A stretch of DNA of 64,000 nt from Paracoccus sp. IB05 (GTDB taxonomy: Bacteria > Pseudomonadota > Alphaproteobacteria > Rhodobacterales > Rhodobacteraceae). This document shows, one piece after another, positions 26,376 through 41,808 of this stretch (the stretch's first letter is position 1; every line of letters begins with the position of its first letter). The translations under genes were made by a program, and so were the position numbers. The notes below the pieces were generated by a model. It was not told the DNA's origin. It did no database searches and worked only from the letters and a program-made list of their open reading frames with translations. Location of the stretch: contig NZ_JAEFCF010000004.1 in NCBI RefSeq assembly GCF_016405985.1, forward strand, positions 124,001 to 188,000. Direction: 5' to 3'.

Positions 26376-27980
26376 ATGTGGGATTACGTCAAACTGATCG
26401 CGCTTGGCCTGATCGCGGTTCTCGCCGCGATCGCGGCCAATTTCGCGCGCGATCTGGCTTATCAGGTCAATGCGATCACGGTCATGCTGGCCGCCGCCAT
26501 CACCTTTGTGGTGCTGCTGCGCGGCGTTGGTGAACCGAAGATCGTCAACAAAAACGAATATCTGGACGGCGTCGTCCGCGCCGGCGTGATTGCCACCGCC
26601 TTCTGGGGCGTTGTCGGCTTTCTGGTCGGCGTCGTCATCGCGAGCCAGCTGGCCTGGCCCTGGCTGAATTTTGAATTCCTCCAGGGGATCGGCAATTTCG
26701 GGCGTCTGCGCCCGCTCCATACCAGCGCCGTGATCTTTGCCTTTGGGGGCAATGCGCTGATCTGTACCGCGTTCTACGTGGTGCAGCGCACCTGCGCCAC
26801 GCGGCTCTGGGGCGGCAATCTGGCCTGGTTCGTGTTCTGGGGCTGGAACCTCATGATCATCCTGGCGGCGAGCTCCTATGTGCTGGGCGGCAGCCAGGCC
26901 AAGGAATATGCCGAACCCGCCTGGCATATCGACATCTGGATCACCATCGTCTGGGTCGCCTTCCTCGCGGTCTATGCCGGCACGGTGATGCAGCGCAAAG
27001 AGCCGCATATCTATGTGGCGAACTGGTTCTACCTCGGCTTCATCATCACCATCGCCATGCTGCATATCGTCAATAACATGGCGATCCCGGTCTCGATCTT
27101 CGGGTCGACCTCGGTGCAGGTCACCGGCGGCGTGCAGGATGCGATGATCCAGTGGTGGTATGGCCATAACGCGGTGGGCTTCTTCCTGACCGCAGGCTTC
27201 CTTGGGATGATGTATTATTTCGTGCCGAAACAGGCCGAACGCCCGGTCTACAGCTACAAACTGTCGATCATCCACTTCTGGGCACTGATCTTCCTCTATA
27301 TCTGGGCCGGTCCCCACCACCTGCATTATTCCGCGCTGCCGGAATGGGCCTCGACCCTCGGCATGGTGTTCTCGATCATCCTGTGGATGCCGTCCTGGGG
27401 GGGCATGATCAACGGTCTGATGACGCTTTCAGGCGCCTGGGACAAGCTGCGCACCGACCCCGTTCTGCGGATGATGGTTGTGGCACTTGGCTTTTACGGT
27501 ATGGCCACCTTCGAGGGCCCGATGATGTCGATCAAATCGGTGAACTCGCTGTCGCATTACACCGACTGGACCATTGGTCACGTTCATTCCGGCGCGCTTG
27601 GCTGGAACGGGCTGATCACCTTCGGCGCGCTTTACTATCTGACGCCGAGGCTCTGGAACCGCGAGCGGCTTTACAGCCTGGCGCTGGTGTCCTGGCATTT
27701 CTGGCTGGCGACGATCGGGATCGTTCTCTACGCCTCGGCGCTTTGGGTGTCTGGCATCATGGAAGGCCTGATGTGGCGCGAAGTCGACGCCAATGGCTTC
27801 CTCGTCAACGCTTTTGCCGACACCGTGGGCGCCAAATATCCGATGAACGTGGTGCGCACATTGGGGGGGCTTCTTTACATGGGGGGCGCGCTCATCATGT
27901 GCTGGAACCTCTGGATGACCGTCCGTGGTCAGGAAGCGAAAGCACCTGTCAATGCCAACAACGCCATTCCGGCGGCGTGA
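26376..27980 (+). CDS. ccoN: cbb3-type cytochrome c oxidase subunit I
   Basis: 534 residues from the ATG at 26376 ([11 protein letters not shown]) with a GAGGGA site. The open frame back to 26199 crosses the FNR box and promoter and is not coding. About 12 TM segments. Haem and copper ligands are visible in [26 protein letters not shown] and [13 protein letters not shown]. It is the catalytic subunit with haem b, haem b3 and CuB, and reduces oxygen with high affinity in the inner membrane. Confidence 0.97.
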
Positions 27981-27991
27981 GCGAGGGTTAA

Positions 27992-28735
27992 ATGTCCATA
28001 CTCGACAAACATAAAAAGATCGAAACCCACGCGACGCTGTTGATGGTGCTGGCCTTTATCGTGGTCGCGATCGGCGGTCTCGTGCAGATCGTGCCGCTTT
28101 TCTATCTCGAGAACACCATCGAGAAGGTGGAAGGGGTTCGCCCCTATACCCCGCTCGAACTCGCGGGTGCGCAGGTCTACAAGAACGAGGGCTGCTATAA
28201 CTGCCACACCCAGATGATCCGCCCGATGCGGGACGAGGTGACGCGCTATGGCCATTACAGCCTTGCCGTCGAATCGATGTATGACAAGCCGCATCAATGG
28301 GGATCGAAACGCACCGGGCCGGATCTGGCCCGGGTGGGCGGGCGCTATTCGGATGAATGGCATGTGGATCACTTTACCGATGCCAAACAGGTGGTGCCGG
28401 AAAGCCTGATGCCGCCCTATGGTTTCCTGAAGAATAAGGTGATCGATGGCAGATATATCGCCGATTCCCTGAAGGCGAGCCGCATCGTCGGCATCCCCTA
28501 TACCAATGAGATGATCGAAAACGCGCAGGCCGATTTCCTGGCCCAGGCCAATCCGGATGCCGACAGTTCCGGCCTGGAGGCACGTTACGGCGAGGCCGCT
28601 TTCGGCCGTGCGGTCAATGTCCGGAACTTTGACGGCTCGCCGAAGATCACCGAGATGGATGCGCTGATCGCCTATATGCAGGTTCTGGGGACGATGGTCG
28701 ATTTCTCGACCTTCACCCCGGATCCGACACGCTGA
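27992..28735 (+). CDS. ccoO: cbb3-type cytochrome c oxidase subunit II (mono-haem)
   Basis: 247 residues with one N-terminal TM anchor (about 12-35), one haem c site (CYNCH in [15 protein letters not shown]) and a periplasmic domain ending in an [12 protein letters not shown] helix. Length is typical. It passes electrons from CcoP to CcoN and is the second gene of the operon. Confidence 0.96.
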
Positions 28736-28747
28736 GGAGGGTAAAGG

Positions 28748-28969
28748 ATGGAACTCTATTCATTCCTGCGCGCCACCGCCGACAGCTGGGGCCTTCTGCT
28801 TATGTTCCTGATGTTTGTCGGCATCGCCTTCTGGGCCTTCCGCCCGGGCAGCCGGAAGACCCATGACGAGATTGCCAGCTCGATTTTCCGCAATGAGGAC
28901 CGCCCCCGGATTGAAAATTCCGCGGCGGGCCCCGCGGAGCCCCGCAACAGCCAGCAGACGGAGGCGTGA
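28748..28969 (+). CDS. ccoQ: cbb3 oxidase small subunit
   Basis: 73 residues with one TM segment (about 13-32, SWGLLLMFLMFVGIAFWAF) and the family motif FRPGSRKTHDEIA. CcoQ stabilises the complex and is not catalytic. It sits between ccoO and ccoP, preceded by a GGAGG site, and ends three bases before ccoP. Confidence 0.93.
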   Translation: MELYSFLRATADSWGLLLMFLMFVGIAFWAFRPGSRKTHDEIASSIFRNEDRPRIENSAAGPAEPRNSQQTEA

Positions 28970-28972
28970 TTC

Positions 28973-29851
28973 ATGTGCGCCAAAAAGATTACCAAAGCCG
29001 AACGTGACGTTCCGACCACCGGCCATGACTGGGACGGCATCCAGGAGCTGGACAACCCGATGCCGCGCTGGTGGGTCTGGGTGTTCTACGCCTGTATCGT
29101 CTGGGGCATCGGTTATACCATCGCCTATCCGGCCTGGCCTTTGCTGACCCGTGCGACGCAGGGTGTGATCGGCAATAACGAACGCGCCAATGTCGCGGCA
29201 GAGATCGCTGACTGGAATGCGAGGAATGCCGGCAACCGTGAAAAGCTGGTGGCGACCGATCTGAATGCGATCGGCGATGATCCTCAGCTTGCGGCTTTTG
29301 CTGAAAACGCAGGGGCTGCCGTGTTTCGCACCAATTGCGTCCAGTGTCATGGCGCGGGGGCAGGGGGCGTGCAGAGCCTCGGCTATCCGAACCTTCTGGA
29401 TGATGACTGGCTCTGGGGCGGCTCGATGGAGGCGATCCATCAGACCGTCAGCCACGGGATCCGCAATACGACCGATCCGGATGCGCGCTACAGCCAGATG
29501 CCCGCTTTCGGAAAGGATCAGCTGCTGGAGAAACCGCAGATCGCCGAAGTGGTGGAATATGTGCTGCAGCTCTCGGGCCAGGAGCATGACGCCGCGCTGG
29601 CCTCTGCGGGGGCGACCGTCTTTGCCGATAACTGTTCCTCCTGCCATGCCGAGACCGGCAAGGGCGACCGCGAACAGGGCGCCCCTGATCTGACCGATGC
29701 GGTCTGGCTCTATGGCGGCTCGCGCGAGGCGATCACTTATAGCGTCAACAATGCGCGGTTCGGGGTGATGCCCGACTGGGCGGGGCGGCTGTCCGAGGCC
29801 GATATCCGCGCGGTCAGCTGGTATGTTCACAGTCTTGGCGGTGGCGAGTGA
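28973..29851 (+). CDS. ccoP: cbb3-type cytochrome c oxidase subunit III (di-haem)
   Basis: 292 residues. A TM anchor lies at about residues 33-55 ([20 protein letters not shown] before it). Two cytochrome c domains follow, with haem sites CVQCH and CSSCH. It receives electrons from the bc1 complex or cytochrome c552. It is the last gene of ccoNOQP and is followed by a terminator. Confidence 0.96.
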
Positions 29852-29859
29852 TACATGAG

Positions 29860-29882
29860 ACGGGCCCTTCGGGGCCCGTTTT
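29860..29882 (+). terminator. Terminator of ccoNOQP
   Basis: An 8-bp stem ACGGGCCC/GGGCCCGT with a TTCG loop ends in TTTT, nine bases after the ccoP stop. It isolates the oxidase operon from the GTPase region downstream. Confidence 0.85.
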
Positions 29883-30991
29883 CATATCCGGGATGGGAGA
29901 GACTGCCCGGCCCCCGGTGCGCCATTTCTTTCCCGGGACTGCGGCTGGTCTCTTCGCCATCGAGGACGAGCGCGCCACCCGGGCATGCCCGGAAAAGCGA
30001 GGTGTTTCACCCTGCGAACCTCAAAGGTGGCGTGCAGGACGGAGACTTCAGGCAATGTGACGCCGGTCATTTGCGGGCCGCTTTTTCCTGGAGGGCTCAG
30101 GGATCGAAGCCGAGCGGCGCATCGCTGCGACGGGGCATGAGAGAGCCTGTGAGGCATTGCAACAGGGTCGTGAGGCCCTCGGGCGCGAAATAGGTGACGC
30201 AGATGACGCCAGGCCCCGGCGGTGAACCAGGGCGAGATGTGAGACGCTGCCCGCGCCCGCTGCGGCTGCGGACAGGGCGGTGAGAGGGAAGATAACCCGT
30301 TTGCAGGTCCCGACCGGGCGACCTCGGCCATGTTCGCGATGTGGCGGGCCAGGGTCTTCACCAATCCCGCCGGCTGAGAGCGCAGGGGCGCTGTTTTCTG
30401 ATTCTCCGACAGGGGCGGGCGAGTGTTTGCGGCCCTTGCAACCTGAGGGGGCCGGGCCGGTGAATAGTGGCGGCGCCGTGGCGGCAGTGACCGGGGCGAG
30501 GAGGGAGGCGTATTCAATTAACTAACTAATATTTCAAATAAAAATATTAATTTCTCACCTGATCCTCCGGGCGCGCCGTCCTGAAAGCACCGCGAACCTG
30601 CCTGATTTGAGCCCAAAACAATGGACATGCTCTGACCATGTTCAGTCACGAGTCAGGGCGGGCAAATGTCAGGCCAGGTTTTGCAGTTTGAGGAAGAGGG
30701 CAGCCAACGGATTGTTGTGGCGGTCAGAGCACGGCGTTTGGGGCAGACGGATCTCTTCGCGCGCCTGTCCAGCCGGCAGCCGGCAGAGTTCAGATCGCGG
30801 CGGGCGGGGAGTGGCGCCGGCAACAGTGTCGGGATCTGTCGGGATCCCGGACAGGACATGGCATGCGAAACCACCTCCGAAGCGCATGCCCAAGCCCTGT
30901 AGCGCCCGGCAGGACCAGCGCTGGCATGCAGGGGCTGGTCCGGCTTTGATTTCTGTAAGCGGCCTGTCCGCACCAAATTTGAGAGGCCTTC
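29883..30991. other. 1.1-kb stretch with no convincing gene
   Basis: Open frames exist on both strands (for example 29882-30517 minus and 30607-31005 plus), but they are Arg/Pro/Ser-rich, lack ribosome sites and show no recognisable motif. They look like chance frames in GC-rich DNA. The region lies between the ccoNOQP terminator and the first GTPase gene and contains an AT-rich island. It may be decayed genes or the regulatory region of the GTPase cluster. Confidence 0.6.
30527..30549. repeat. AT-rich inverted repeat upstream of the GTPase cluster
   Basis: TAATATTT and AAATATTA form a perfect 8-bp inverted repeat around a 7-base AT spacer, inside a roughly 45-base AT-rich island (about 30511-30556). 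The surrounding DNA is strongly GC-rich. The island could be a protein-binding site, promoter element or insertion scar. Its position 450 bp before the first GTPase gene is suggestive only. Confidence 0.55.
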
Positions 30992-33025
30992 ATGACGAAG
31001 GGTAACATCAGGCTGAAGCACCGCGAGGGGTTCGGAGAACTCAACCGCTATTGGTCGCGCCTGGCGGATCTTGAGAAGGCGGTCGAGGATTTCTACGATT
31101 ACTCGCTGGCCTTTGTCGAAGAGCCGATTGACCGGGTGCTGGATAAAATCCGGTCTTTTGAGCCTTCGGTCTCGGTGATTGGCCAGATCAAGGCCGGGAA
31201 AAGCACGCTGGTCAATGCGCTGGTGGGCGAGACCGATCTCTTGCCATCAGATGTGAACCCCTGGACTTCGGTGATCACCGCGCTGCATCTGAACAGCCGG
31301 CACCGGCCGATGAATACCCGCGCGCTGTTTCGCTTTTTCGACCAGCATGAATGGGACCGGCTGGTCGCAACCGGGGGCCGGCTTGGCGAGATGGCCACCC
31401 GCGCCGGATTCGAGCAGGAAGCCGATGAGGTGCGCGCGCAGGTCACGCAGATGCGCCAGAGCACCGAGGCGCGGCTGGGGGCGGATTTCGCCAGTATCAT
31501 CGGGTCGAACCATTCTTTCCCGGACCTCGATAAGGAAACGATCAACCGCTACATCTGCTACGGTGACCCGTCCGAACTGAAGGACGCATCGGGCGACGGG
31601 GTCTATGCCGATATCACCAAGACCGCCGATCTTTATATTGACGCCGAAGGGCTGCCGTCGGGCCTGTGTATCCGCGACACGCCCGGCGTGAACGACACAT
31701 TCATGATGCGCGAGCAGATCACGCTCAACGCGATCCAGGACAGCCGGGTCTGCGTCGTTGTGCTGTCGGCGCATCAGGCGCTTTCCACCATGGATGTGGC
31801 GATTCTGCGCATCATCTGTGCCGTCGAGGCGCGCGAAGTGGTGATCTTCGTCAACCGGATCGACGAGCTGGCTGATCCGAAGGCCGAAGAGGAAAAGATC
31901 CGCGCTTCGATCCGCCGCACATTGGCGCGGCTGGGGCTGGATCAGGATATCTCGATCCTGTTCGGCTCGGGCTATTGGGCGAATTTCGCGATCTCGGGCG
32001 AGGGCGCGCTGATGCCGCGCAGCCTTGCCTCGCTGCAACAGCTGAATCCCGATCTGGATATCACCGACCATGAGGCGCTGCGCGAGGCGGCGTTCGAGGC
32101 TTCGGGCGTGCCCGCCTTGCACCGGCTGATTGCCGAACGTGTGATTGATGGCCCGGGGGCGGCTTTCCTGAAAGACATCGAAGCCGAGATCAAACTCATC
32201 ATCGAGATGAGCGAAGCGGTGGATTCGGCGGCGCGGCTGCGCGATGCCGGGATGGCGGTGCTGACCATCAGCCAGGAAGAGCTGATGCTGAAGGTGGCAG
32301 ATGCGCTGCAAAAGGTGATGACCACCTTTGACGCGGCAGCCGTCGATCTGCGCATCGCGTTGCACGAACGCCTGACCCGCGCCCGCGAAACCTTTGTCGA
32401 TTCCGCGGTCGAGGCGCTGCAATCGCATATCCAGGCCTTTGGCGAGACCGGCTCCTGGGATCACGACCCGACGGGCCTGCGGATGATGATGCGCACGGCC
32501 TATCTTTCTTCCTGTGCCAGGCTGCGCCGCGAGGGCGAGATCAGCTTTGAATCGGTGCTCGATGCGGTGCAGGACGTGCTGCAAAACGAGCTGGGCGTCT
32601 ATCGCAATGCCGCCAGCATCGATTTTCCGGAACAGCAGCAACATAGCGCGCCGACCGTGCTGGCCCGCACGCTGTCGCTCGACCTTCAGGGGACGTGGTG
32701 GCATCGGATCTGGGATACCGGTGCGACCGGCAGGCTGGCCGGGCGCTTCCTGCGCTTTGGCCAGGCGAAGAAGGTCGAAAAGAAATACCGTGCGCTGATT
32801 ATCGAAGAGACCCAGCCGCTGATCGACAATCTGCTGACGGATTTCTTTGATCCGGCGGTCGCGGCCACGCGCGAGATCGTCACCGGATTTGCGCTGGATC
32901 AGAGCCGGTTCTGCGAGGCGCTGCTGGAGCGGCTGCATGAAAAGGGGCCGGACGAGAACAAGGCCGGGCAGTCGGATGAGACCAGTCTCGCCCGTCTGGC
33001 CGAGATGCGGAGGTTGTCGGCGTGA
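30992..33025 (+). CDS. Dynamin-like GTPase A (large)
   Basis: 677 residues with a GAGAGG site before the ATG. GTPase motifs: P-loop GQIKAGKST (64-72), G2 in LLPSDVNPWTSV, G3 DTPG (229-232), G4 NRID (288-291). A long helical C-terminal half (about 400-677) would form the stalk. Near residues 565-580 a tryptophan-rich motif (DLQGTWWHRIW) precedes basic helices, a plausible membrane-contacting paddle. There is no TM segment. Bacterial dynamin-like proteins bend or fuse membranes; this one's role is unknown. Its stop overlaps the next gene's GTG, so A and B are coupled. Its C-terminal half resembles that of GTPase D. Confidence 0.88.
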   Translation: MTKGNIRLKHREGFGELNRYWSRLADLEKAVEDFYDYSLAFVEEPIDRVLDKIRSFEPSVSVIGQIKAGKSTLVNALVGETDLLPSDVNPWTSVITALHLNSRHRPMNTRALFRFFDQHEWDRLVATGGRLGEMATRAGFEQEADEVRAQVTQMRQSTEARLGADFASIIGSNHSFPDLDKETINRYICYGDPSELKDASGDGVYADITKTADLYIDAEGLPSGLCIRDTPGVNDTFMMREQITLNAIQDSRVCVVVLSAHQALSTMDVAILRIICAVEAREVVIFVNRIDELADPKAEEEKIRASIRRTLARLGLDQDISILFGSGYWANFAISGEGALMPRSLASLQQLNPDLDITDHEALREAAFEASGVPALHRLIAERVIDGPGAAFLKDIEAEIKLIIEMSEAVDSAARLRDAGMAVLTISQEELMLKVADALQKVMTTFDAAAVDLRIALHERLTRARETFVDSAVEALQSHIQAFGETGSWDHDPTGLRMMMRTAYLSSCARLRREGEISFESVLDAVQDVLQNELGVYRNAASIDFPEQQQHSAPTVLARTLSLDLQGTWWHRIWDTGATGRLAGRFLRFGQAKKVEKKYRALIIEETQPLIDNLLTDFFDPAVAATREIVTGFALDQSRFCEALLERLHEKGPDENKAGQSDETSLARLAEMRRLSA

Positions 33026-34233
33026 GGAGCTTCTGGAACCGCAGGAAACCGGCCGATCCGGTGGCTGAACGCCCTGGTGCTCCGGTGCAGCGCAAGCCGC
33101 GCATCCTGATCGCGGGCGAATTCAGCGCCGGCAAGACCCAGCTGATCAACGGGCTGGTCGGCGGGCTGATCGGCGGCCCGGTGCTGCCGTCGAATGTCAC
33201 CGCGACCGCGCTGCCGCCGGTCTGGCTGGTGCGCGGCGAACCGGCGCTGATCCGTGTCGGCTTTTCGGGGCGGGGCGAGCCGCTGGCCGATCTGAACACT
33301 GTCGATCTGGAAAAGACCCAATATTGCGTGATGGCGCATCCGGCACCGGTCCTGACCGGGATGGATATTATCGACACGCCCGGCAATTCCGATCCGAATA
33401 TGGCGGCCGAGACCTGGCAGCGCATGCTGGAATTTGCCGATGCCGTGGTCTGGTGTACCAATGCAACCCAGGCCTGGCGGCAAAGCGAAAAGGCGGTCTG
33501 GCAGGCGATGCCGGCGCGGCTGCGGCAGAATGCGACCATGGTGGTGACCCATGCCGATCTGCTGGGCAGCCCGGCCATGGCTGACCGCGTGTTGCAGCGC
33601 GTCCAGCGCGAGGCCGGCGCGTTTTTCGAGAGCTTCCTCATGGCGTCGCTCTTGCAGCGCGAAGATCTTGACCGCATCGCGGCCCGTCTGCGTATCGTCA
33701 GCGGCAGTGTGCGGCAGGATGGAGCGCCCAATACGCTGATCGGCCAGTTCGCGGCCTCGGTGCCGGTGCGCGTCACGACGCCCGAGCCGGCGGCCGCATC
33801 CGTTGCGACCGGGGCTGCGGACCCGCAGCCCGCTCCTGCCCTGAAAGCGCAGAATGAAGCCGGGGAGACCCCCGATCTTTCCGCATCACCGCGCGGTGCG
33901 GTCGGGGCCAATGTCCTGCAGCTCGTGCGGAACCGTCGCCCGGAGGAGACCCCGCCCGAAACCGCGCCCGAAACCCCGCCTCCGGCACGCGCGGCTCTGG
34001 TCCGCGCCGCGCTGGCCGGAGCAGAGAGCGGGCATGCGCGCAGCCTCTGGAACGAAATGAGCCAGAGCGTTGACCACAGCGATCCGGAATCGCTGCTCGC
34101 CGCTGTGGATCATTTTATCGCCCGGCTGGATGCGCAGCCCGCCCAGGCCGGCGCTGTGAATAGTAACTCTGTGAATAGTGGCTCTGCCAGTGGTGCCGGA
34201 CGTGCCGGTTTCTCTGCGGATTTTTGTGAGTGA
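33022..34233 (+). CDS. Small dynamin-family GTPase B
   Basis: 403 residues starting at a GTG inside the stop region of GTPase A (GTGA overlap). The compact GTPase domain shows P-loop GEFSAGKT (32-39), LPSNVTAT as G2, DTPG (118-121) and THAD (176-179) in the G4 position instead of NKxD. After about residue 245 comes a Pro/Glu/Ala-rich disordered linker, then a short helical C-terminal segment (about 335-385). It lacks the long stalk of its neighbours, so it probably acts with a large partner. A decayed copy lies after GTPase D. Confidence 0.83.
   Translation: MRSFWNRRKPADPVAERPGAPVQRKPRILIAGEFSAGKTQLINGLVGGLIGGPVLPSNVTATALPPVWLVRGEPALIRVGFSGRGEPLADLNTVDLEKTQYCVMAHPAPVLTGMDIIDTPGNSDPNMAAETWQRMLEFADAVVWCTNATQAWRQSEKAVWQAMPARLRQNATMVVTHADLLGSPAMADRVLQRVQREAGAFFESFLMASLLQREDLDRIAARLRIVSGSVRQDGAPNTLIGQFAASVPVRVTTPEPAAASVATGAADPQPAPALKAQNEAGETPDLSASPRGAVGANVLQLVRNRRPEETPPETAPETPPPARAALVRAALAGAESGHARSLWNEMSQSVDHSDPESLLAAVDHFIARLDAQPAQAGAVNSNSVNSGSASGAGRAGFSADFCE
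34156..34185 (+). repeat. 15-bp tandem repeat in the tail of GTPase B
   Basis: Two adjacent 15-bp units that differ at two positions encode VNSNS-VNSGS near the C-terminus of GTPase B. They look like in-frame slippage in a disordered tail. Confidence 0.65.
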
Positions 34234-34242
34234 GGAGCTGAC

Positions 34243-36366
34243 ATGCAAATTGCACCTAACCAGCGCCAGGAACTGAATTTTCTTCGGGATTCCCTTGACG
34301 GGATCGACAAGGTCATCAGCCGTGACATGCGTCCGGGCTTTCGCGCGCTGCGCGAGCGGCTGGACAACTGGGCCGCAAAAGTCGCGGTGATCGGTCAGGT
34401 CAAGGCGGGCAAGTCGACCTTTCTGAACGCTTTCCTTTACAGCCATGATTTCCTGCCCTCGGATGTGAACCCCTGGACTTCGGTCGTCACCAATATAAGG
34501 GTGAACCTGCCCGGCGACCCGGTGATGGGGGCCAAATTCGAATTCTTCGGCAATGCTGACTGGAACGAGATCGTCAATGGCGACAGCCGCATCCGCAAGC
34601 TGACCGAACAGTTGCTGCCGGGCTTTGACACCCAGCTTTTGCGCGAACAAAGCGACCAGATGCGCCGGCGCGCCGAGGAACGGCTTGGCAAGCGCTATGC
34701 CGATCTCCTGGGGACGGCACATGATTACGATTATATCTCCTCGGATCTGTTGCGGAGCTATGTCTGCGCCGGGGCCGAGGATGAGACCGATCCGACGGCG
34801 GCAGGGCGTTATGCGATGCTGACCAAAGTCGCGAATGTCTATATGCGGCTGCCGGAATTCCAGGTGCCGACCATCATCACCGATACGCCCGGCGTGAATG
34901 ACCCCTTCCTTGTGCGCGATGAATTCACCTGTCGCAGCCTCGACAAGTCGGATGTTTTTGTCATCGTCCTGTCGGCGCATCAGCCGCTGACCGATGTCGA
35001 TATCGCGCTGATCCGGATCCTCGCGAAACAGGATAACAAGGATGTCCTGGTCTTCGTGAACCGGATCGACGAGCTGGACGATTACGACACGGATGTGCCG
35101 CGCGTGATCGAAGATGTCTCGCGGCGTCTGTGCGGAGCGATCCCGGATATTGATTTCACCATCGTGGCCGGTTCGGCCTGGATGGCGGATCTGACGCTCC
35201 AGGACGGGGAAGAGGCCGAGGCCGATCGCGCCGCCCTCGATGACACCCGCCTCGCGCGCTATATTCATTCGCGCTACGGCTATCTGCCCGATGACCGCTG
35301 CGAGCGGCTGATGCTCGCCTCTGGCATGCGCGATGTGAAAGTGGCGCTGTCGCAGCTGATCGATTCAGGCGTTGGCCGGTCGCAAATGGCGCAGATCAAG
35401 GCCGATATCCGGGCCGAGCTGAATGGCGCGCTGTTTGTGGCGCGGCGCGAACGCGCGTCGCTGCAAACCCAGGCCGGCAGCGTCAACAGTGAGGTCGCCA
35501 CGATGGCGATCGAGGATCTTCAGCTGGAGATCGACGCCATCCGCAAGGTGCAGACCGAGCTGGAAGGCCATGTCGAGAATGCCGAAGTGCAGATCGAGAA
35601 GGTCCTGACCAGGTCCTGGTCCAGGCTGGAAACCCGGCTGATTGGTATGATCGAGAGCTTTATCGAAGATCAGAAGCCGGAATTCGAGGCACGGATCATG
35701 GCCGGAAAGCTGCGTGGCGAGACGGCGCGGGCGATGGAAATCGACCTCTCGCCTTTGCAAAAGGTCATGGAGCGCGAGCTTACATCGGCCTGGAGGAACT
35801 CGCGCGCGGGCACCGATGTGGTGCTCTCGAACGGGTTGTCATCGTGCCAGCAAACCATCAAAGACCGCTTCCAGGAACGGGCCGAGGGGATCGACCTTTC
35901 CGATCTGCCCTATGATGAATTTGTCTCGACGCTGACGCTGGCGAAACGGTCGCTCAGGGTGAATTTCATCTCGAATCGCAGCTGGGCTTTCTGGCGTCGG
36001 CCCGGGATCAATGTCGAAAAGAGCCTTGCCGCGCTGCGGATGATCGCGGCAGAAGAGCTGCGCCCGCCGATGGAAAAACTTCTGGCCGCCTTCAATGAGG
36101 CCCAGGTGGAACGCGCGGATGCCGGCATCGACCGGCTCCGCGTGATGCTCCGGATGTTCGAGCTCTCGCTGAATGAGCGGGTGCACCGGCTGAAAAAAGA
36201 CATGGTGGAATTCGAAATGGTCGTGAATGACCCCGATTTCCGCCGCCGCATCGTCCACCGGCTGCAAAGCCAGATGGAGGTGCTGGAGCGCCGGCTGATC
36301 AACCTTTCAGCCGTGGAAAGCGCGCTGGCGCAGGCGGATGTGACGCGGGCCGCCGCTGCGGCCTGA
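34243..36366 (+). CDS. Dynamin-like GTPase C (large)
   Basis: 707 residues, 10 bases after GTPase B, with a GAGGAG site. Motifs: P-loop GQVKAGKST (51-59), G2 LPSDVNPWTSV (identical to that of A), G3 DTPG (214-217), G4 NRID (273-276). Residues about 385-707 are almost entirely helical with heptad-like Leu patterns. A Trp motif (NRSWAFWRRPG, near residue 580) again precedes a long helix. The protein is probably cytosolic and membrane-associated, forming heteromers with its neighbours. The C-terminal region differs from A and D, so it is a separate lineage within the cluster. Confidence 0.87.
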   Translation: MQIAPNQRQELNFLRDSLDGIDKVISRDMRPGFRALRERLDNWAAKVAVIGQVKAGKSTFLNAFLYSHDFLPSDVNPWTSVVTNIRVNLPGDPVMGAKFEFFGNADWNEIVNGDSRIRKLTEQLLPGFDTQLLREQSDQMRRRAEERLGKRYADLLGTAHDYDYISSDLLRSYVCAGAEDETDPTAAGRYAMLTKVANVYMRLPEFQVPTIITDTPGVNDPFLVRDEFTCRSLDKSDVFVIVLSAHQPLTDVDIALIRILAKQDNKDVLVFVNRIDELDDYDTDVPRVIEDVSRRLCGAIPDIDFTIVAGSAWMADLTLQDGEEAEADRAALDDTRLARYIHSRYGYLPDDRCERLMLASGMRDVKVALSQLIDSGVGRSQMAQIKADIRAELNGALFVARRERASLQTQAGSVNSEVATMAIEDLQLEIDAIRKVQTELEGHVENAEVQIEKVLTRSWSRLETRLIGMIESFIEDQKPEFEARIMAGKLRGETARAMEIDLSPLQKVMERELTSAWRNSRAGTDVVLSNGLSSCQQTIKDRFQERAEGIDLSDLPYDEFVSTLTLAKRSLRVNFISNRSWAFWRRPGINVEKSLAALRMIAAEELRPPMEKLLAAFNEAQVERADAGIDRLRVMLRMFELSLNERVHRLKKDMVEFEMVVNDPDFRRRIVHRLQSQMEVLERRLINLSAVESALAQADVTRAAAAA

Positions 36367-36803
36367 CAGACGGGCAGCCCCTGACCGGGGGACGGACGGC
36401 CTGGTACACCAGGCTGGTTGGCCGGGGAGCCGGATATGGCGGGAACGGGTTTTCAGACCGCCGGTTCCCGCCATTCTCCGTTGTGAGTCCCGCCGTTTTT
36501 CAGGGCTTGTAAGACGGCTGAAAGGTGACTCCGGAACATAGAAAATCCACCAGAGATCCATAAATTCTTCACAAAGCCGGGACAATTTCATCTTATACGA
36601 GGAGGAGGTCATCTGGCCGGCTTCTCCGGATGTGTGATGGTTCTCGTGTCGGAGCGGTTTTTGCTCTTTCTGGTTCTTTGTCCTCAGCCGGCGGCCCGCC
36701 TGTTTCCTGATCCCCGGGGAATTTCAGGCAGATTGTGCCCCCTTCGGGACGCAGCTGTCCTTGCGATGCTGCGATCTGTGCTTTCGCACAGGGGAAGGGG
36801 AAC
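36367..36803 (+). other. 437-base gap between GTPases C and D
   Basis: No gene is evident. The first third carries the inverted repeat at 36436-36474. The middle (about 36535-36610) is richer in A and T and could hold a promoter for GTPase D, though I cannot place -35 and -10 boxes with confidence. The frame open from 36735 into GTPase D lacks a ribosome site before 36804. Confidence 0.5.
36436..36474. repeat. 11-bp inverted repeat after GTPase C
   Basis: ATGGCGGGAAC pairs with GTTCCCGCCAT across a 17-base loop. No T-run follows. It may stop or stabilise the A-B-C transcript, or be a protein site. Confidence 0.55.
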
Positions 36804-38852
36804 ATGAAAGACATTCAATCCGCCGCAAATGGTGCCATCGCCGGATCAGCGCTTTCCGGATCGGCCTCTGTCGAAACAACGTCCTCCGGACCGGACCGCC
36901 CGCCGAACCTCGACCTGCTGAGCCAGGGTGCCGAGGTGATCAGGCCCTTCTTCCAGACGCTTGAGACCTTGCGGGACACCGTCCTTGCCAGGGCGCGCGA
37001 GAGCGACAGCGCAATGAGCCGCAAACTCGTGGCGCTTGCAGGGAAAACCGACAGTTTCGAGGCCTCGGTCACGCTGGTGGGGCCACTCAAGGCCGGCAAG
37101 ACCGCGCTGGTCAATGTGCTCAGCGGTCAGCCCGGCCTGATGCCGGAGGATGGGGCCGCCCTGACCCCGGTTGTCACTGAGCTGCATGTCAATGCGCGGC
37201 AGGCCAGCCGCCGGACCCGTGCCCTGTTCCGGTTCTTTGACCCCGGCGACCGGGACAGGATGATGCGCGACACCGCGCGCCGCCATCTTTCGGCGGATGT
37301 CGAGCCGCTGTCGGGCAAAAGCCACAAATTCAGCTATGTCGATCGCGAACTGATCGGGCGCTATGTCTGCGCCGCTGACCCTGACAATCAGCAGCTGAAC
37401 CCGCAAAGCCAGCAGGGCAAGTTTGCGGATATCACCAGATCGGCAGAGATCTGGCTGGATGTGCCGCAGCTTTCCGGCAGCTATCTGTTCCGCGATACGC
37501 CCGGGGTGAATGACAGGTTCCTCCTGCGCGAACAGGTCACCCTCCAGGCGCTGCGCGGGTCAAAGATCTGTGTCATGGTTCTCTCGGCGCATGAGGCGCT
37601 GAACGCCACCGATCTTGCGCTGATCCGGCTGATTACAAACTCGGAATCGCGTCAGGTTGTGCTGTTCGTCAACCGTATCGACGAGCTCGATACGCCCTCT
37701 GAGCAGGTGGCCGGAATCTATGAGAGCATCCACAAAACGCTGCGCCCCTATGGTCGTCTGCGGGATGTGAAGGTGGTATTCGGCTCGGCCCGCTGGGCGG
37801 CGATGGCGCTGCGGGGCGAGCGCCCGGATCGTGACGAAGACGGCAAGACCGCACTGTCCGACTGGGCCCGCAATTGCGATGTCGGGACCGATCCGCGCAA
37901 CATGGCGCATCTGTGGAAGCTGTCGGGCATTCCCGAACTGATGCGCAGCATCAATGAGCGTATCGTTGAGGGTTCGGGCGCCCGCCATCTGGCGGCGATG
38001 CGCGGCAGGCTTGCCAATATCGCCGCCGCCAGGGCCGCCCGCAAGGCATTGGTCAGCGGCCGCGATACCGCGGGGCGGCTGACAGCTGTCGATCCGGAAC
38101 AGCTGCGCGGCGATCTCGACGCCGTAGTCAGTCGTGCGCGGGAAAAACTGGAAGAGACGCTTTCCCGGCTGGAGGGAGAGCTGGCACCGGCGCTGACCCA
38201 GGTGCAGCAGGATTATGTGCTCCGCGCCACCGACGCTCTGACCGATCATCTGTGCAAAGCCGGCACGAAGGACAGCTGGACCTTCAATTCCTCGGGGCTG
38301 CGGCTGGTGCTGCGCACGACCTGTGACCGGTTTTCGGCCCGGGCCCGCGCGCAGGTGGAAACGGTGTTCTATGGCGTGGCAAGTGATCTGAGCGCGCTCT
38401 GTTCCGGCGCATTGGGGCTTGCGGTCGACGGGTTCCGGATCGAGCCGCCGCAGGTTCCCAAAGCGCCGCCGCCGGTTGTGATGGGCAAAACCATCACCAT
38501 CGACCTCCGCCGCAGCTGGTGGAAGCGCTGGTGGCTGCGTCGCAGGAACCCCGCCACGCTTGCCGCCGCGTATCGCAGCCTGATCGAGGCCGGGATCTGC
38601 TCGGCGACTGATGATCTGAAACAGAGCCAGGTCATTGATGTATCCCGAGAAATCAGGCGCATTTTCGATGACTTCCTCGCTGAGCAGACCGCGACCGTGC
38701 TTGATCTCGCCAACCGACATCCCGAAGGCGGCGATTTCGGGTCGCTGCCTGCCAATGTGTCTGCCGCGATCCGACCGGAGAAGGCGCCTGGCGGTGATCC
38801 CGAAGCAGTCCCCGATCCCGGTGAGCTGCGCAAAGCCGTGGGGGGCTATTGA
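36804..38852 (+). CDS. Dynamin-like GTPase D (large)
   Basis: 682 residues from the ATG at 36804, which has an AAGGGG site. Residues 1-40 are Ser/Ala/Gly-rich and disordered. Motifs: P-loop GPLKAGKTA (93-101), diverged G2 (MPEDGAALTPVV), G3 DTPG in FRDTPGVND, G4 NRID. The helical C-terminal half shares with GTPase A the blocks SGLRLVLRT (SSGLR vs PTGLR) and the motif DLRRSWWKRWWLRRR (DLQGTWWHRIW in A), a basic Trp-rich putative paddle. A and D are therefore paralogues. It is followed by remnants of a small B-type GTPase, mirroring the A-B order. Confidence 0.87.
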   Translation: MKDIQSAANGAIAGSALSGSASVETTSSGPDRPPNLDLLSQGAEVIRPFFQTLETLRDTVLARARESDSAMSRKLVALAGKTDSFEASVTLVGPLKAGKTALVNVLSGQPGLMPEDGAALTPVVTELHVNARQASRRTRALFRFFDPGDRDRMMRDTARRHLSADVEPLSGKSHKFSYVDRELIGRYVCAADPDNQQLNPQSQQGKFADITRSAEIWLDVPQLSGSYLFRDTPGVNDRFLLREQVTLQALRGSKICVMVLSAHEALNATDLALIRLITNSESRQVVLFVNRIDELDTPSEQVAGIYESIHKTLRPYGRLRDVKVVFGSARWAAMALRGERPDRDEDGKTALSDWARNCDVGTDPRNMAHLWKLSGIPELMRSINERIVEGSGARHLAAMRGRLANIAAARAARKALVSGRDTAGRLTAVDPEQLRGDLDAVVSRAREKLEETLSRLEGELAPALTQVQQDYVLRATDALTDHLCKAGTKDSWTFNSSGLRLVLRTTCDRFSARARAQVETVFYGVASDLSALCSGALGLAVDGFRIEPPQVPKAPPPVVMGKTITIDLRRSWWKRWWLRRRNPATLAAAYRSLIEAGICSATDDLKQSQVIDVSREIRRIFDDFLAEQTATVLDLANRHPEGGDFGSLPANVSAAIRPEKAPGGDPEAVPDPGELRKAVGGY

Positions 38853-38970
38853 CGGGCGGTCGGGATGGCCCTGAGCGCCTCGTCTCCGGGGGGCGCAGCA
38901 TCCGCCTGGTCTGGCGGATTGCGGTTCTGTTCCGCCGCAAAGCAAGGCTTGTATCCGGCTTTTTTGTGCA

Positions 38971-39227
38971 GCCGACATTCTGCAACATCGCGACCTGATT
39001 GACAGGCCGGGCGTCACGGACCCGAATATTCCGCTGAAAGGCCGGATCCCCAACATCGGCCACGCCACTGCGCTGATCTGGGGGCAACAGGCTGTCCAGG
39101 CCTTGCGTGAAAGCGTGCGCGGCTGCATCAGACCCCGCGCGTGCTGATCCCCTGCAAGGACAAGATCACCTCGGACCAGGACTGCCGCAAGATCGAACCC
39201 CGACCGGAGCGCGAGACCGGAGCGCAT
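38971..39227 (+). pseudogene. Decayed small GTPase (paralogue of GTPase B)
   Basis: Translation of 38971-39120 gives ADILQHRDLIDRPGVTDPN and onward. It aligns without gaps to GTPase B residues 108-157, with 18 of 50 identical by my manual count, including the G3 region (D.IDxPG..DPN) and ALIW..QAVQALRES against AVVWCTNATQAWRQS. The match resumes in another frame at 39138-39227 (ending RPERETGA against RVQREAGA in B, residues 172-201), after a frameshift and a loss of about eight codons. The P-loop part is missing and an in-frame stop follows the first segment. It lies directly after GTPase D, where a B partner would be expected. Confidence 0.75.
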
Positions 39228-39356
39228 CCTGACCGTTGCGGTCTGCCTCGGATGGTGACGCCGCCACTGTTCGCGGCTAGAATGGCGCGATCCGCGATGG
39301 TCGCCGCGCTGATCGCGGCGCAGACCACCCCAGCAGCGTTCAGTCAGGGAAATGCG

Positions 39357-39998
39357 ATGAAGGATGCAACCCGGGTCGGCGCCAGATGCCCGTTCGGCTT
39401 TGGTGGAGAGGCAGGCGCGCCTTTCACGGCAAGCCCGCAGCTCGCCACGCCTGTCCCGGAAATCTCTGCGGAATCTGAGGAGTATCGTCATGTCGCGGGT
39501 GCACAGGACCTGGCGTGCGACACATTGCCGGGGTTTCTGTCCGCGCCGGTTCCCGAAGGTGAAAATGGTCTCGCAACTGGCCGCTGTCTTTGTGGCCAGG
39601 TCAGTTTCCGGTCGGGCCAGCCGGTCTCGATGGTCTTTGCCAGCCATGACGCGGTGTCGCGCAAACGTGCGGGCGGCGTCGCGCTGACGATCATGCTGCG
39701 CGCGGGAAGCACGGAATTCGCGGGATGGGACAATCTGGCGCATTACCAGGTCTCGGCGCGTGAGGTCTCGTATTTTTGCCGGACCTGCGGCACGCCGGTT
39801 CTGACGCGCCACCTCGCGCCCGATGCGATGGCGGGGATGATCTCGCTTTCGGCGGGGCTGCTGGACCGGACCGAAGGGCTGCGGCTTGCGGCCGAGATCA
39901 GCCATGACGAAAAGCCGGAATTCTACGCCTTTACCGGTGAGCGCCGGGTGATCACCACGGGTGAACTTGAGGCGATTTTCGCCGGTCGCGGGCGCTGA
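39357..39998 (+). CDS. GFA/CENP-V-fold protein with missing zinc ligands
   Basis: About 213 residues from the ATG at 39357, which has an AGGGA site. The frame open from 39141 overlaps the decayed GTPase. Residues 72-205 resemble the glutathione-dependent formaldehyde-activating (GFA) fold. The structural-zinc pairs are present (C77/C79 in GRCLCGQVSF, C141/C144 in FCRTCGTPV). The second CxCxxC site is replaced by ASHDAV (about 95-100), so GFA-type catalysis is doubtful. The N-terminal 70 residues are an unusual extension with RCPFGFGGEAG. It sits between the GTPase cluster and ccoG; its role is unknown. Confidence 0.65.
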   Translation: MKDATRVGARCPFGFGGEAGAPFTASPQLATPVPEISAESEEYRHVAGAQDLACDTLPGFLSAPVPEGENGLATGRCLCGQVSFRSGQPVSMVFASHDAVSRKRAGGVALTIMLRAGSTEFAGWDNLAHYQVSAREVSYFCRTCGTPVLTRHLAPDAMAGMISLSAGLLDRTEGLRLAAEISHDEKPEFYAFTGERRVITTGELEAIFAGRGR

Positions 39999-40063
39999 GG
40001 GCCGGCTTGCGCGCGGTCCTGCGCGCGGCCTGACTAGGGCCTGACTGGGGCCCGCATGCGGGA

Positions 40064-40077
40064 TTGATCCAGGTCAA
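40064..40077. promoter_or_regulatory. Upstream FNR box before ccoG
   Basis: TTGATCCAGGTCAA is a near-consensus FNR site about 300 bp before the ccoG start. It is too far upstream for standard activation of ccoG and may serve an upstream start site or be a relic of an earlier promoter arrangement. Confidence 0.72.
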
Positions 40078-40298
40078 GGCCCGGGTGAGGCGCTTTTGGC
40101 ATTAAGAAACCGCCCCGCCTTTTCGAACCCCATCGGAGACGGCGGGGGGCGGCCCTGGCCCAACCCTTCCTGTTCGCGCGTTCCGGGGTTTGGTCAGGGT
40201 CGGGATCCGGGCCGCGCCCGCTGACCTTGCGGTCACGGCTGCGGCATTTGCGCACTGCGGCACCGCGCAGGATCAAACTTGAATCGCCCATGGACTAT

Positions 40299-40312
40299 TT
40301 GACGCATGTCAA
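40299..40312. promoter_or_regulatory. Promoter-proximal FNR box for ccoGHIS
   Basis: TTGACGCATGTCAA is a perfect dyad of TTGAC/GTCAA, centred 66 bp upstream of the GTG start. With activation centred near -41.5 this leaves a short leader. It shows that ccoGHIS has its own FnrL promoter. Confidence 0.85.
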
Positions 40313-40371
40313 AGCCGGCCCGCTGCCGGTCTGCGATATCAAACTGCAACAGCCGATTCCGGAGCGAGTCC

Positions 40372-41808
40372 GTGTCCATACCAGAAGCCAGCCCGCCGAG
40401 CCTTTACGCGGCGCGTGAGCCGATCTTTCCCCGCCGCGTCAAAGGCCATTTTCGCACGGCGAAATGGTGGATCATGGCGATCACGCTGGGCATTTACTAC
40501 ATCACGCCCTGGATCCGCTGGGATCGCGGGCCGAACCTGCCCGACCAGGCGGTGCTGGTGGACCTGGCCAATCGCCGCTTTTTCTTTTTCATGATCGAAA
40601 TCTGGCCGCATGAATTCTATTTCGTCGCGGGTCTTTTGATCATGGCAGGGCTGGGGCTGTTTTTGTTCACCTCGGCCGCCGGGCGGGTCTGGTGTGGCTA
40701 TGCCTGTCCGCAAACCGTCTGGACCGACCTTTTCATCCTGGTCGAACGCTGGATCGAGGGGGACCGCAATGCCCGCATCCGCCTGCACCGGAGCAAATGG
40801 ACGGCAGAGAAGATCCGCAAAAGCGCGGTGAAATGGTCCGCATGGTTCCTGATCGGGCTTGCTACCGGCGGTGCCTGGATTTTTTACTTCACCGATGCGC
40901 CGACTTTGCTGCGTGACCTGGTGACGCTCAGCGCCAGCCCCGTTGCCTGGATCACCATGCTGACGCTGACCATGACCACCTTCGTCTTCGGTGGGTTCAT
41001 GCGCGAACAGGTCTGCATCTATATGTGCCCCTGGCCCCGTATCCAGGCCGCGATGATGGACGAAGAGACGATCACCATCGCCTATCGCGACTGGCGCGGC
41101 GAGCCGCGCGGCAAGCCAGACACCGACATGGGCGACTGCATCGACTGCATGGCCTGCGTCAATGTCTGCCCGATGGGGATCGACATCCGTGACGGCCAGC
41201 AACTGGCCTGCATCACCTGCGGGCTTTGCATCGACGCCTGCAATGACATGATGGACAAGATCGGCAAGCCGCGCGGGCTGATCGACTATCTCGCGCTGAC
41301 CGACGAGGCCCGTGAGCGCAGGGGCGAGCCTGCTGTTCCGGCCTGGAAACATGTTCTGCGCCCGCGCACGATCCTTTACACCCTGCTCTGGGCCGGGGTC
41401 GGGGCGGCGCTGGTGGCGGCTTTGTTCCTGCGCAGCCCGATTGATGTCAACGTCACGCCGGTGCGCAATCCGACCTTTGTGACGCTCTCGGACGGCACGA
41501 TCCGCAACACCTACGAGATCCGTCTGCGCAATATGGAAGGCGAGGCCCGCTGGTTCTCCTTTTCTGTCGAAGACCCGGCGCTGGCTTTGTCGGTCGAAGG
41601 CGGCACTGAGGGCCGGATCGAGGTTCCGGCCAATGAGACCGCGCATGTGCGGCTTTACGTAACAGCGGCACCCGGGACGGCGGCAGCCGCGGCGCAGCGC
41701 AGCGATATCCGGCTCTGGATCGAGGGCGAGGCGGTGCCCGGCGTCAAAGATACCACTGACCTTGTGTCGAAAGACACGATCTTCAACGGCAAAGGCGACC
41801 AACCATGA
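40372..41808 (+). CDS. ccoG: cbb3 oxidase biogenesis protein, membrane ferredoxin-like copper reductase
   Basis: 478 residues from the GTG at 40372 (preceded by GGAG). The ATG at 40306 lies inside the FNR box and is rejected. About five TM segments. Two 4Fe-4S ferredoxin motifs are present (CIDCMACVNVCP and CITCGLCIDAC), with membrane-loop cysteines CGYACPQTVW and CIYMCPWPR. A periplasmic Ig-like domain (about residues 375-478) ends the protein. CcoG/RdxB/FixG is thought to reduce Cu(II) for delivery to CcoN. It overlaps ccoH by ATGA. Confidence 0.95.
   Translation: MSIPEASPPSLYAAREPIFPRRVKGHFRTAKWWIMAITLGIYYITPWIRWDRGPNLPDQAVLVDLANRRFFFFMIEIWPHEFYFVAGLLIMAGLGLFLFTSAAGRVWCGYACPQTVWTDLFILVERWIEGDRNARIRLHRSKWTAEKIRKSAVKWSAWFLIGLATGGAWIFYFTDAPTLLRDLVTLSASPVAWITMLTLTMTTFVFGGFMREQVCIYMCPWPRIQAAMMDEETITIAYRDWRGEPRGKPDTDMGDCIDCMACVNVCPMGIDIRDGQQLACITCGLCIDACNDMMDKIGKPRGLIDYLALTDEARERRGEPAVPAWKHVLRPRTILYTLLWAGVGAALVAALFLRSPIDVNVTPVRNPTFVTLSDGTIRNTYEIRLRNMEGEARWFSFSVEDPALALSVEGGTEGRIEVPANETAHVRLYVTAAPGTAAAAAQRSDIRLWIEGEAVPGVKDTTDLVSKDTIFNGKGDQP

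Follow-up and report, generated by a model that had tools for sequence, protein, structure and literature searches.

Most descriptions of bacterial dynamins concern single proteins or pairs, and we know of little that explains what switches them on. Several dynamins are encoded in one operon in the Eleos system (LeoA/LeoBC). Excerpts of PMC6104087 state that most bacterial dynamins occur paired in operons, and describe CjDLP1/DLP2 of Campylobacter jejuni as a heterotypic pair that tethers membranes and DynA as two dynamins fused in one chain. For Bacillus subtilis DynA, a membrane-protection and phage role is given in an excerpt of PMC8844932, and EHD-type dynamins are the subject of PMC7016017, judging from its excerpt. 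Among the matches listed in the open PMC literature, no paper was found on a bacterial dynamin together with a Roadblock protein or with kinase/FHA/PP2C proteins.

In this study, a window of 64,000 nucleotides (the whole stretch of DNA analysed) from Paracoccus sp. IB05 (contig NZ_JAEFCF010000004.1, positions 124,001 to 188,000 of the forward strand) was investigated, in which four dynamin-like genes, A, B, C and D, lie between the cbb3 oxidase genes ccoNOQP and ccoG. With modest confidence, we read this cluster as a transferred multi-dynamin module of a regulated heteromeric dynamin machine that would serve membrane tethering or repair; the module is eroding in this genome. More tentatively, we propose that Rhodobacterales carry transferable Roadblock-gated dynamin machines, in which a Roadblock/LC7 protein is free or fused to a compact dynamin and a kinase, an FHA reader and a PP2C or DSP phosphatase would switch assembly. 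Below, B2, Ed and E denote further compact GTPase genes, C' a paralogue of C, R a group of small genes (R1 in type I loci, R2 in type II loci, and R3), and c6 the last gene of type I operons.

Architecture of the dynamin cluster and comparison with known systems

As the sequence-only reading had described, A to D are consecutive open reading frames (ORFs) on the same strand. Each scores above the Pfam Dynamin_N gathering score of 27 bits (A, 57; B, 28; C, 57.4; D, 29.9), and their dynamin identity is therefore not due to chance. Read from the sequence, a KAGKS/T P-loop, DTPG and NRID are present in A, C and D, and GEFSAGKT, DTPG and THAD in B. The earlier description of a cluster of four is right for the number of dynamin genes but incomplete, since the cluster extends past D with a B2 pseudogene and then a GFA gene before ccoG, and D has lost conserved switch-I residues.

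The structure model of A best matches CjDLP1, mitofusin and BDLP, and IniA and Mfn1 are among the structures matched; A is predicted to have a helical neck/trunk with a membrane tip beside the GTPase domain, whereas B is compact. The Trp-rich tip pattern is present in 96 of the 133 large proteins but does not fit C. Among viral structures, four resemble A at E ≤ 0.001, three of them named giant-virus dynamin proteins. A C-terminal motif of the compact proteins, guessed by eye, fits only 4 of 108 B proteins and was discarded.

As in the CjDLP pair, dissimilar dynamin genes, here A and B, lie side by side on the same strand. The present systems differ in combining long dynamins with compact partners in two or more pairs and in having a Roadblock-type gene and often kinase/FHA/PP2C genes, whereas the C. 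jejuni operon includes an HcpA-like beta-lactamase, according to the excerpted PMC6104087. A GTPase domain followed by a long helical trunk with a tip is shared with Nostoc BDLP1 and mitofusins, but identity in structural alignments is about 12–16%, and here a multi-gene cluster with regulators is found. DynA, also a bacterial dynamin, is a tandem fusion, whereas the window genes are separate. Eleos likewise has several dynamins in one operon, but the regulators found in relatives of the window cluster differ. Type II loci share with MglA/MglB and other Roadblock/LC7 GTPase systems (Rag/Ragulator, conservons) that a protein, here of predicted Roadblock fold, is encoded beside GTPases, but these are dynamins here and not Ras-like small GTPases.

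Profile searches, as the sequence-only reading had proposed, placed all four proteins in Dynamin_N. The NCBIfam DynA model, with a cut-off of 1600, gave 19.1 bits for A and 16.4 for C. In the PADLOC library, which has no cut-off, A, C and D matched the LeoA and LeoBC models weakly (E 2.6e-10 to 3.9e-7) and B matched neither. In the comparison with MADS, A showed a weak match to mad8.

Distribution and probable horizontal transfer of the cluster

Among 120 genomes of the same family, own genome (G000) included, 28 have strong matches to B (E ≤ 1e-16) and 28 to C or some other large member (E ≤ 1e-55), and weak matches to these add one and four genomes, respectively. This patchy distribution, together with the Dynamin_N scores and the matches of the A model, bears out the accessory, multi-dynamin and dynamin-like nature that had been ascribed to the cluster. 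Matches are also present in 19 plasmid records, 18 from Rhodobacterales and a weak one in Photobacterium, and C is unmatched in 50,697 phage records.

The host genome is a close relative of Pseudogemmobacter, A sharing 91% identity with its P. bohemicus counterpart and 80% with that of P. hezensis; for C, the P. bohemicus value is 96%. In these three genomes, and as located earlier in the window, the cluster lies between ccoNOQP (26376–29851 in the window) and ccoG (from 40372). The order is ccoNOQP–A–B–C–D–B2 remnant–GFA–ccoG in the window; ccoNOQP–A–B–C–Ed–D–B2–DSP–Roadblock-type R3–ABC-type ATPase–GFA–GGDEF–ccoG in P. hezensis (with DSP, R3 and GGDEF in part identified by eye among the ORFs of L162); and ccoNOQP–about 13.5 kb–A–B–C–D–B2–other ORFs–GFA–ccoG in P. 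bohemicus. The P. bohemicus insert between ccoP and A (L160:6600-20000, on G120:C2) contains minus-strand ORFs which, by eye, resemble urea ABC-transport proteins, allophanate hydrolase and urea carboxylase. The point between ccoP and A may be a repeated insertion site.

Elsewhere in the family, the two parts of the cco locus are usually close together. ccoP adjoins ccoG directly in Cereibacter ovatus (L153), and among 104 other genomes with both genes, these lie on one contig in 100 and within 3 kb in 93 (median 445 bp), the remaining one-contig distances being 3–5 kb in three and beyond 10 kb in four, compared with 10.5 kb in the window. One genome (G055) has a ccoP–ccoG distance of 17 kb without a dynamin match. 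In no other dynamin carrier does a match share a contig with ccoG at a distance below 10 kb; the nearest is about 28 kb away (G015), many pairs lie on different contigs of draft genomes, and one carrier (G054) lacks a ccoG match.

In a ccoG tree of nine proteins, Pseudogemmobacter groups with Cereibacter and Thioclava (98/96), whereas in the A and C trees it groups with Mesobacterium (100/100 and 99/100), Cereibacter A being a long branch in the A tree. In the approximately unbiased (AU) test, taken on ccoG and A with groupings named after the trees were seen, ccoG rejected grouping with Mesobacterium (p 3.8e-4), while A, on eight rows, rejected grouping with Cereibacter/Thioclava (p 3.4e-5) as well as with Thioclava (p 7.5e-5). 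The conflict of the A and C trees with the ccoG tree makes transfer likely and an oxidase role unlikely. The cluster was thus likely acquired horizontally, as judged from these trees, and in our reading its insertion between ccoP and ccoG would have occurred in an ancestor of the Pseudogemmobacter group.

Anchoring at tRNA genes is not a general pattern, as a predicted tRNA occurs in 4 of 44 loci. Two similar type I loci have a tRNA-Arg (tct) about 0.65 kb past c6 (L108:14756-14832 and L119:9404-9480), and one predicted within the kinase gene of L095 is probably spurious.

Related loci and their putative regulators

To describe the wider family, the best 80 of 499 confirmed relatives were tallied, a sample hence biased to kin of A; the tallies rest on tblastn labels, the gene caller having given false minus-strand calls in several loci. 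Type I loci (52/80) carry kinase, FHA, PP2C and dynamin genes, typically in the order kinase–FHA–PP2C–compact–large–compact–R–c6. A–B–C–E is present in 13 loci, of which 10 have R2 (type II). Five loci are from Neomegalonema (compact–A–B–R–c6–C–E), four are of the window type, and six are partial or other loci. Thioclava pacifica (L090) exemplifies type II and Leisingera aquaemixtae type I, the latter on a plasmid. A Leisingera plasmid record is annotated with kinase, FHA, PP2C and two dynamins in that order, a Ruegeria replicon carries four dynamins and a kinase, and a Rhodobacter replicon has four dynamins in a row, so that runs of four also occur outside the window.

An R-group gene is present in 71 of the 80 loci (R1, 53; Neomegalonema form, 5; R2, 10; R3, 3). 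An R2 protein is predicted to adopt a Roadblock/MglB fold (helix, two strands, helix, three strands, helix). Profile comparisons linked R1 to R3 at 98% and R3 to R2 at 65% or 68%, with 9% in one run, which gives the R1 of type I loci no more than an indirect connection to the Roadblock fold. Alignments of R compared with PDB profiles returned nothing convincing, and the Pfam Robl_LC7 family (PF03259) did not match R2 of L039 or R3 of L059. Compact GTPases with a C-terminal Roadblock domain occur in L066–L068 and are reminiscent of Rag GTPases. A Roadblock domain at the C-terminus of type II E, an idea formed by eye, gave a profile link of 9–28% (controls <1%) and is not claimed.

As for the other candidate regulators, the kinase and PP2C of L049 score above the Pfam cut-offs, and this kinase matches mad6 and, about as well, PD-T4-6 kinases. 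Tc-R-P, a Pfam family whose name refers to polymorphic toxin systems, is matched by the DSP phosphatases of L040 and L059 (E 2e-21 and 9e-20); in the same loci, the ATPases weakly match an AbiEii-type AAA family. The c6 genes (L094–L150, e.g. L095:13291-14109) encode about 265 amino acids (aa), with no Pfam match in L049; a single sub-threshold NCBIfam match to BchJ in L095 (E 0.066) was not used.

The genome of strain IB05 has a second cluster, G000:C27 (locus L039), consisting of an R2 gene (118 aa), C' (57% identical to C) and a compact GTPase gene. Its orthologues are 86% identical in P. bohemicus, with the same neighbours, and more distant in P. hezensis (63%). Three further partial Dynamin_N matches above the cut-off in this genome (G000:C31, C75 and C108) are possibly other GTPases.

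Erosion of the window copy

Set beside its relatives, the window copy is what remains, in degraded and partly decaying form, of a larger system. When the B2 sequences of P. bohemicus and P. hezensis were used as tblastn queries, the B2 remnant was found as pieces in two frames (E 1e-23 and 5e-26); its P-loop half is missing, DTPG has become DRPG, and the frame changes near 39120. In D, which retains G1, G3 and G4, the switch I sequence DVNPWTSV of all four orthologues compared (L071, L072, L077 and L081) is replaced by DGAALTPV, and 29 residues that are intact in the same four are missing. Ed, DSP, R and the ATPase, all present in P. hezensis, were not found in the window by tblastn labels. 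Loss is the simpler reading, since L077, L081 and L040 have some of these genes.

The ratios of nonsynonymous to synonymous substitution (dN/dS) relative to P. bohemicus are 0.118 for A, 0.441 for B (computed from 33085), 0.063 for C and 0.250 for D, and the low values of A and C indicate that these two are still constrained. The dS of D is 0.70 against 0.42 for A, B and C (window versus L071), which simple decay does not account for, hinting that D may have been recombined or replaced in one lineage.

The features of the cluster and its flanks are listed in Table 1. The B start at 33022 is matched in P. bohemicus, and the gene order around B is the same there and in P. hezensis. D most likely starts at ATG 36804 rather than GTG 36735. 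The start of the GFA gene was judged from relatives, a longer ORF from 39141 beginning inside the B2 remnant; this gene is at the same place in P. bohemicus and P. hezensis and also at the cluster end in L040, L059, L061 and L077. A protein combining 2Fe-2S, FAD/NAD reductase and bacterial globin domains (named for L059) is encoded mostly beside the GFA gene in L059:12727-14307, L061:17447, L077:19950 and L081:20492, and was not found in the window. The terminator that had been assigned to ccoNOQP could not be established, as 29700–40500 contains 11 terminator-like patterns compared with 8.1 ± 3.0 in shuffles.

Table 1 Features of the dynamin cluster and its flanks (window coordinates)
Feature	Position	Strand	Description
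ccoP, left flank	28973..29851	+	orthologues with ccoN and ccoO in L072 and L160
A	30992..33025	+	large dynamin-like GTPase of 677 aa; long helical trunk with Trp-rich tip beside the GTPase domain
B	33022..34233	+	compact dynamin-like GTPase, 403 aa, low-complexity tail; start overlaps A stop
C	34243..36366	+	second large dynamin-like GTPase, 707 aa
Possible Ed tail remnant (weak)	36537..36587	+	17-residue match with stop; tblastn E = 0.006, four-stretch database
D	36804..38852	+	third large dynamin-like GTPase, 682 aa, apparently degenerating
B2 pseudogene	38890..39284	+	compact dynamin GTPase remnant
GFA-domain gene	about 39357..39998	+	PF04828, E 6.7e-10; Pfam 'glutathione-dependent formaldehyde-activating'
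ccoG, right flank	40372..41808	+	92% identical in P. bohemicus, 87% in P. hezensis

Possible functions of the cluster

In the mechanism we propose, two long membrane-type dynamins (A and C) with compact partner GTPases (B here) would form the core, and the partner of C would be supplied, if at all, by the second locus G000:C27. By analogy with the CjDLP pair, A with B and C with E may form hetero-oligomers. The Trp-rich tip of the A trunk would meet the membrane, and GTP-driven dimerisation could tether or seal inner-membrane sheets under envelope stress. The Roadblock protein might act as a GTPase-activating protein or as an assembly scaffold for the dynamin GTPases, and phosphorylation would gate assembly where kinase and phosphatase are present, as in type I loci.

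Several observations weigh against this mechanism. At E ≤ 1e-60, the A profile finds 2 of 385 genomes of the class, both from the same family and own genome included (at most three candidates scored per genome), and the machine is therefore not one that bacteria share in general. The window cluster lacks kinase, FHA and PP2C genes, and their tblastn labels were found at neither cluster of this genome; PP2C_2 was not found genome-wide, kinases not being searched at that scale. As phospho-control genes were found near neither cluster, A, B and C here would act without such control. Robl_LC7 has no match anywhere in G000, so that the assignment of the small C27 gene as Roadblock-type rests on R2 similarity. 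Among the relatives, the FHA matches of L049 and L095 are below the curated cut-offs, the Roadblock fold is predicted for one R2 protein only, Pfam and PDB profiles found no Roadblock in R1/R3, and the direct R1–R2 profile link (0.3–2.4%) is little above the controls (0.1–0.8%).

The cluster could instead be an anti-phage (conflict) module, which we consider a less likely alternative. The dynamins would then sense membrane damage caused by phages and either close the cell or postpone lysis, as reported for B. subtilis DynA, or act in a LeoA/LeoBC-like manner. The patchy family distribution, the transfer indicated by the trees and AU test, the plasmid records, the weak matches to LeoA/LeoBC and mad8, the resemblance of the L049 kinase to mad6 and PD-T4-6 kinases and the fast evolution of B are all in its favour, as are, somewhat, the Tc-R-P matches of the DSP phosphatases and the weak AbiEii-type matches of the ATPases in L040 and L059; phage resistance has also been reported for a bacterial dynamin in the excerpted PMC8844932. 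However, no toxin or nuclease domain was recognised among the cluster proteins scanned, C occurs in no phage record, and the proposed survey for defence genes nearby gave no clear defence island among 104 sampled flanking proteins of 28 loci (from 173 of 34 loci chosen; a few are maybe unlabelled c6 genes). These flanks yielded four PADLOC families at E ≤ 1e-10 (mad3, 8; mad8, 4; AriA, 2; CSD_V, 1), counted without a background set and not traced to proteins, and the 25 Pfam families shown for them are mostly metabolic, transport and two-component.

That the window cluster is a decaying remnant without present function is improbable. The B2 pseudogene, the damaged D and the absence of the Ed, DSP, Roadblock-type and ATPase genes of P. 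hezensis are what such a remnant would have, but A and C are full-length ORFs with intact GTPase motifs and dN/dS values of 0.12 and 0.06. The sequence-only reading had offered as an alternative a tie to the oxidase or to intracytoplasmic membranes, so that the cluster would help cbb3 oxidase assembly or the biogenesis of intracytoplasmic (respiratory or photosynthetic) membranes. The place between ccoNOQP and ccoG, kept in three genomes, is in favour of such a helper, but it is very improbable, because this place was seen only in the three Pseudogemmobacter-group genomes, other clusters examined lie elsewhere with cco genes in 1 of the 80 related loci (about 10 kb flanks; P. bohemicus is a second by longer fetch), ccoP and ccoG are within 3 kb in most other genomes, and A rejects the grouping that ccoG supports. 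Neither result that would have refuted the sequence-only reading came about: the arrangement is not universal, and the proteins do not belong to a known non-dynamin family.

Returning to the regulated heteromeric dynamin machine, its novelty relative to known bacterial dynamin systems lies in the regulators of the relatives, the window being a degraded copy, and the Pseudogemmobacter series shows such a system lost gene by gene. The operons that tie dynamins to Roadblock-type protein, kinase, FHA and phosphatase genes name candidate regulators, so that the question of what controls bacterial dynamins can be put to the test in marine bacteria that grow in culture, Thioclava pacifica and Leisingera aquaemixtae among them. 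If the Roadblock-gated machine is real, bacteria would have in it a dynamin-based equivalent of Rag/Ragulator-like control, in which a regulator fold known with Ras-like GTPases is joined to dynamins.

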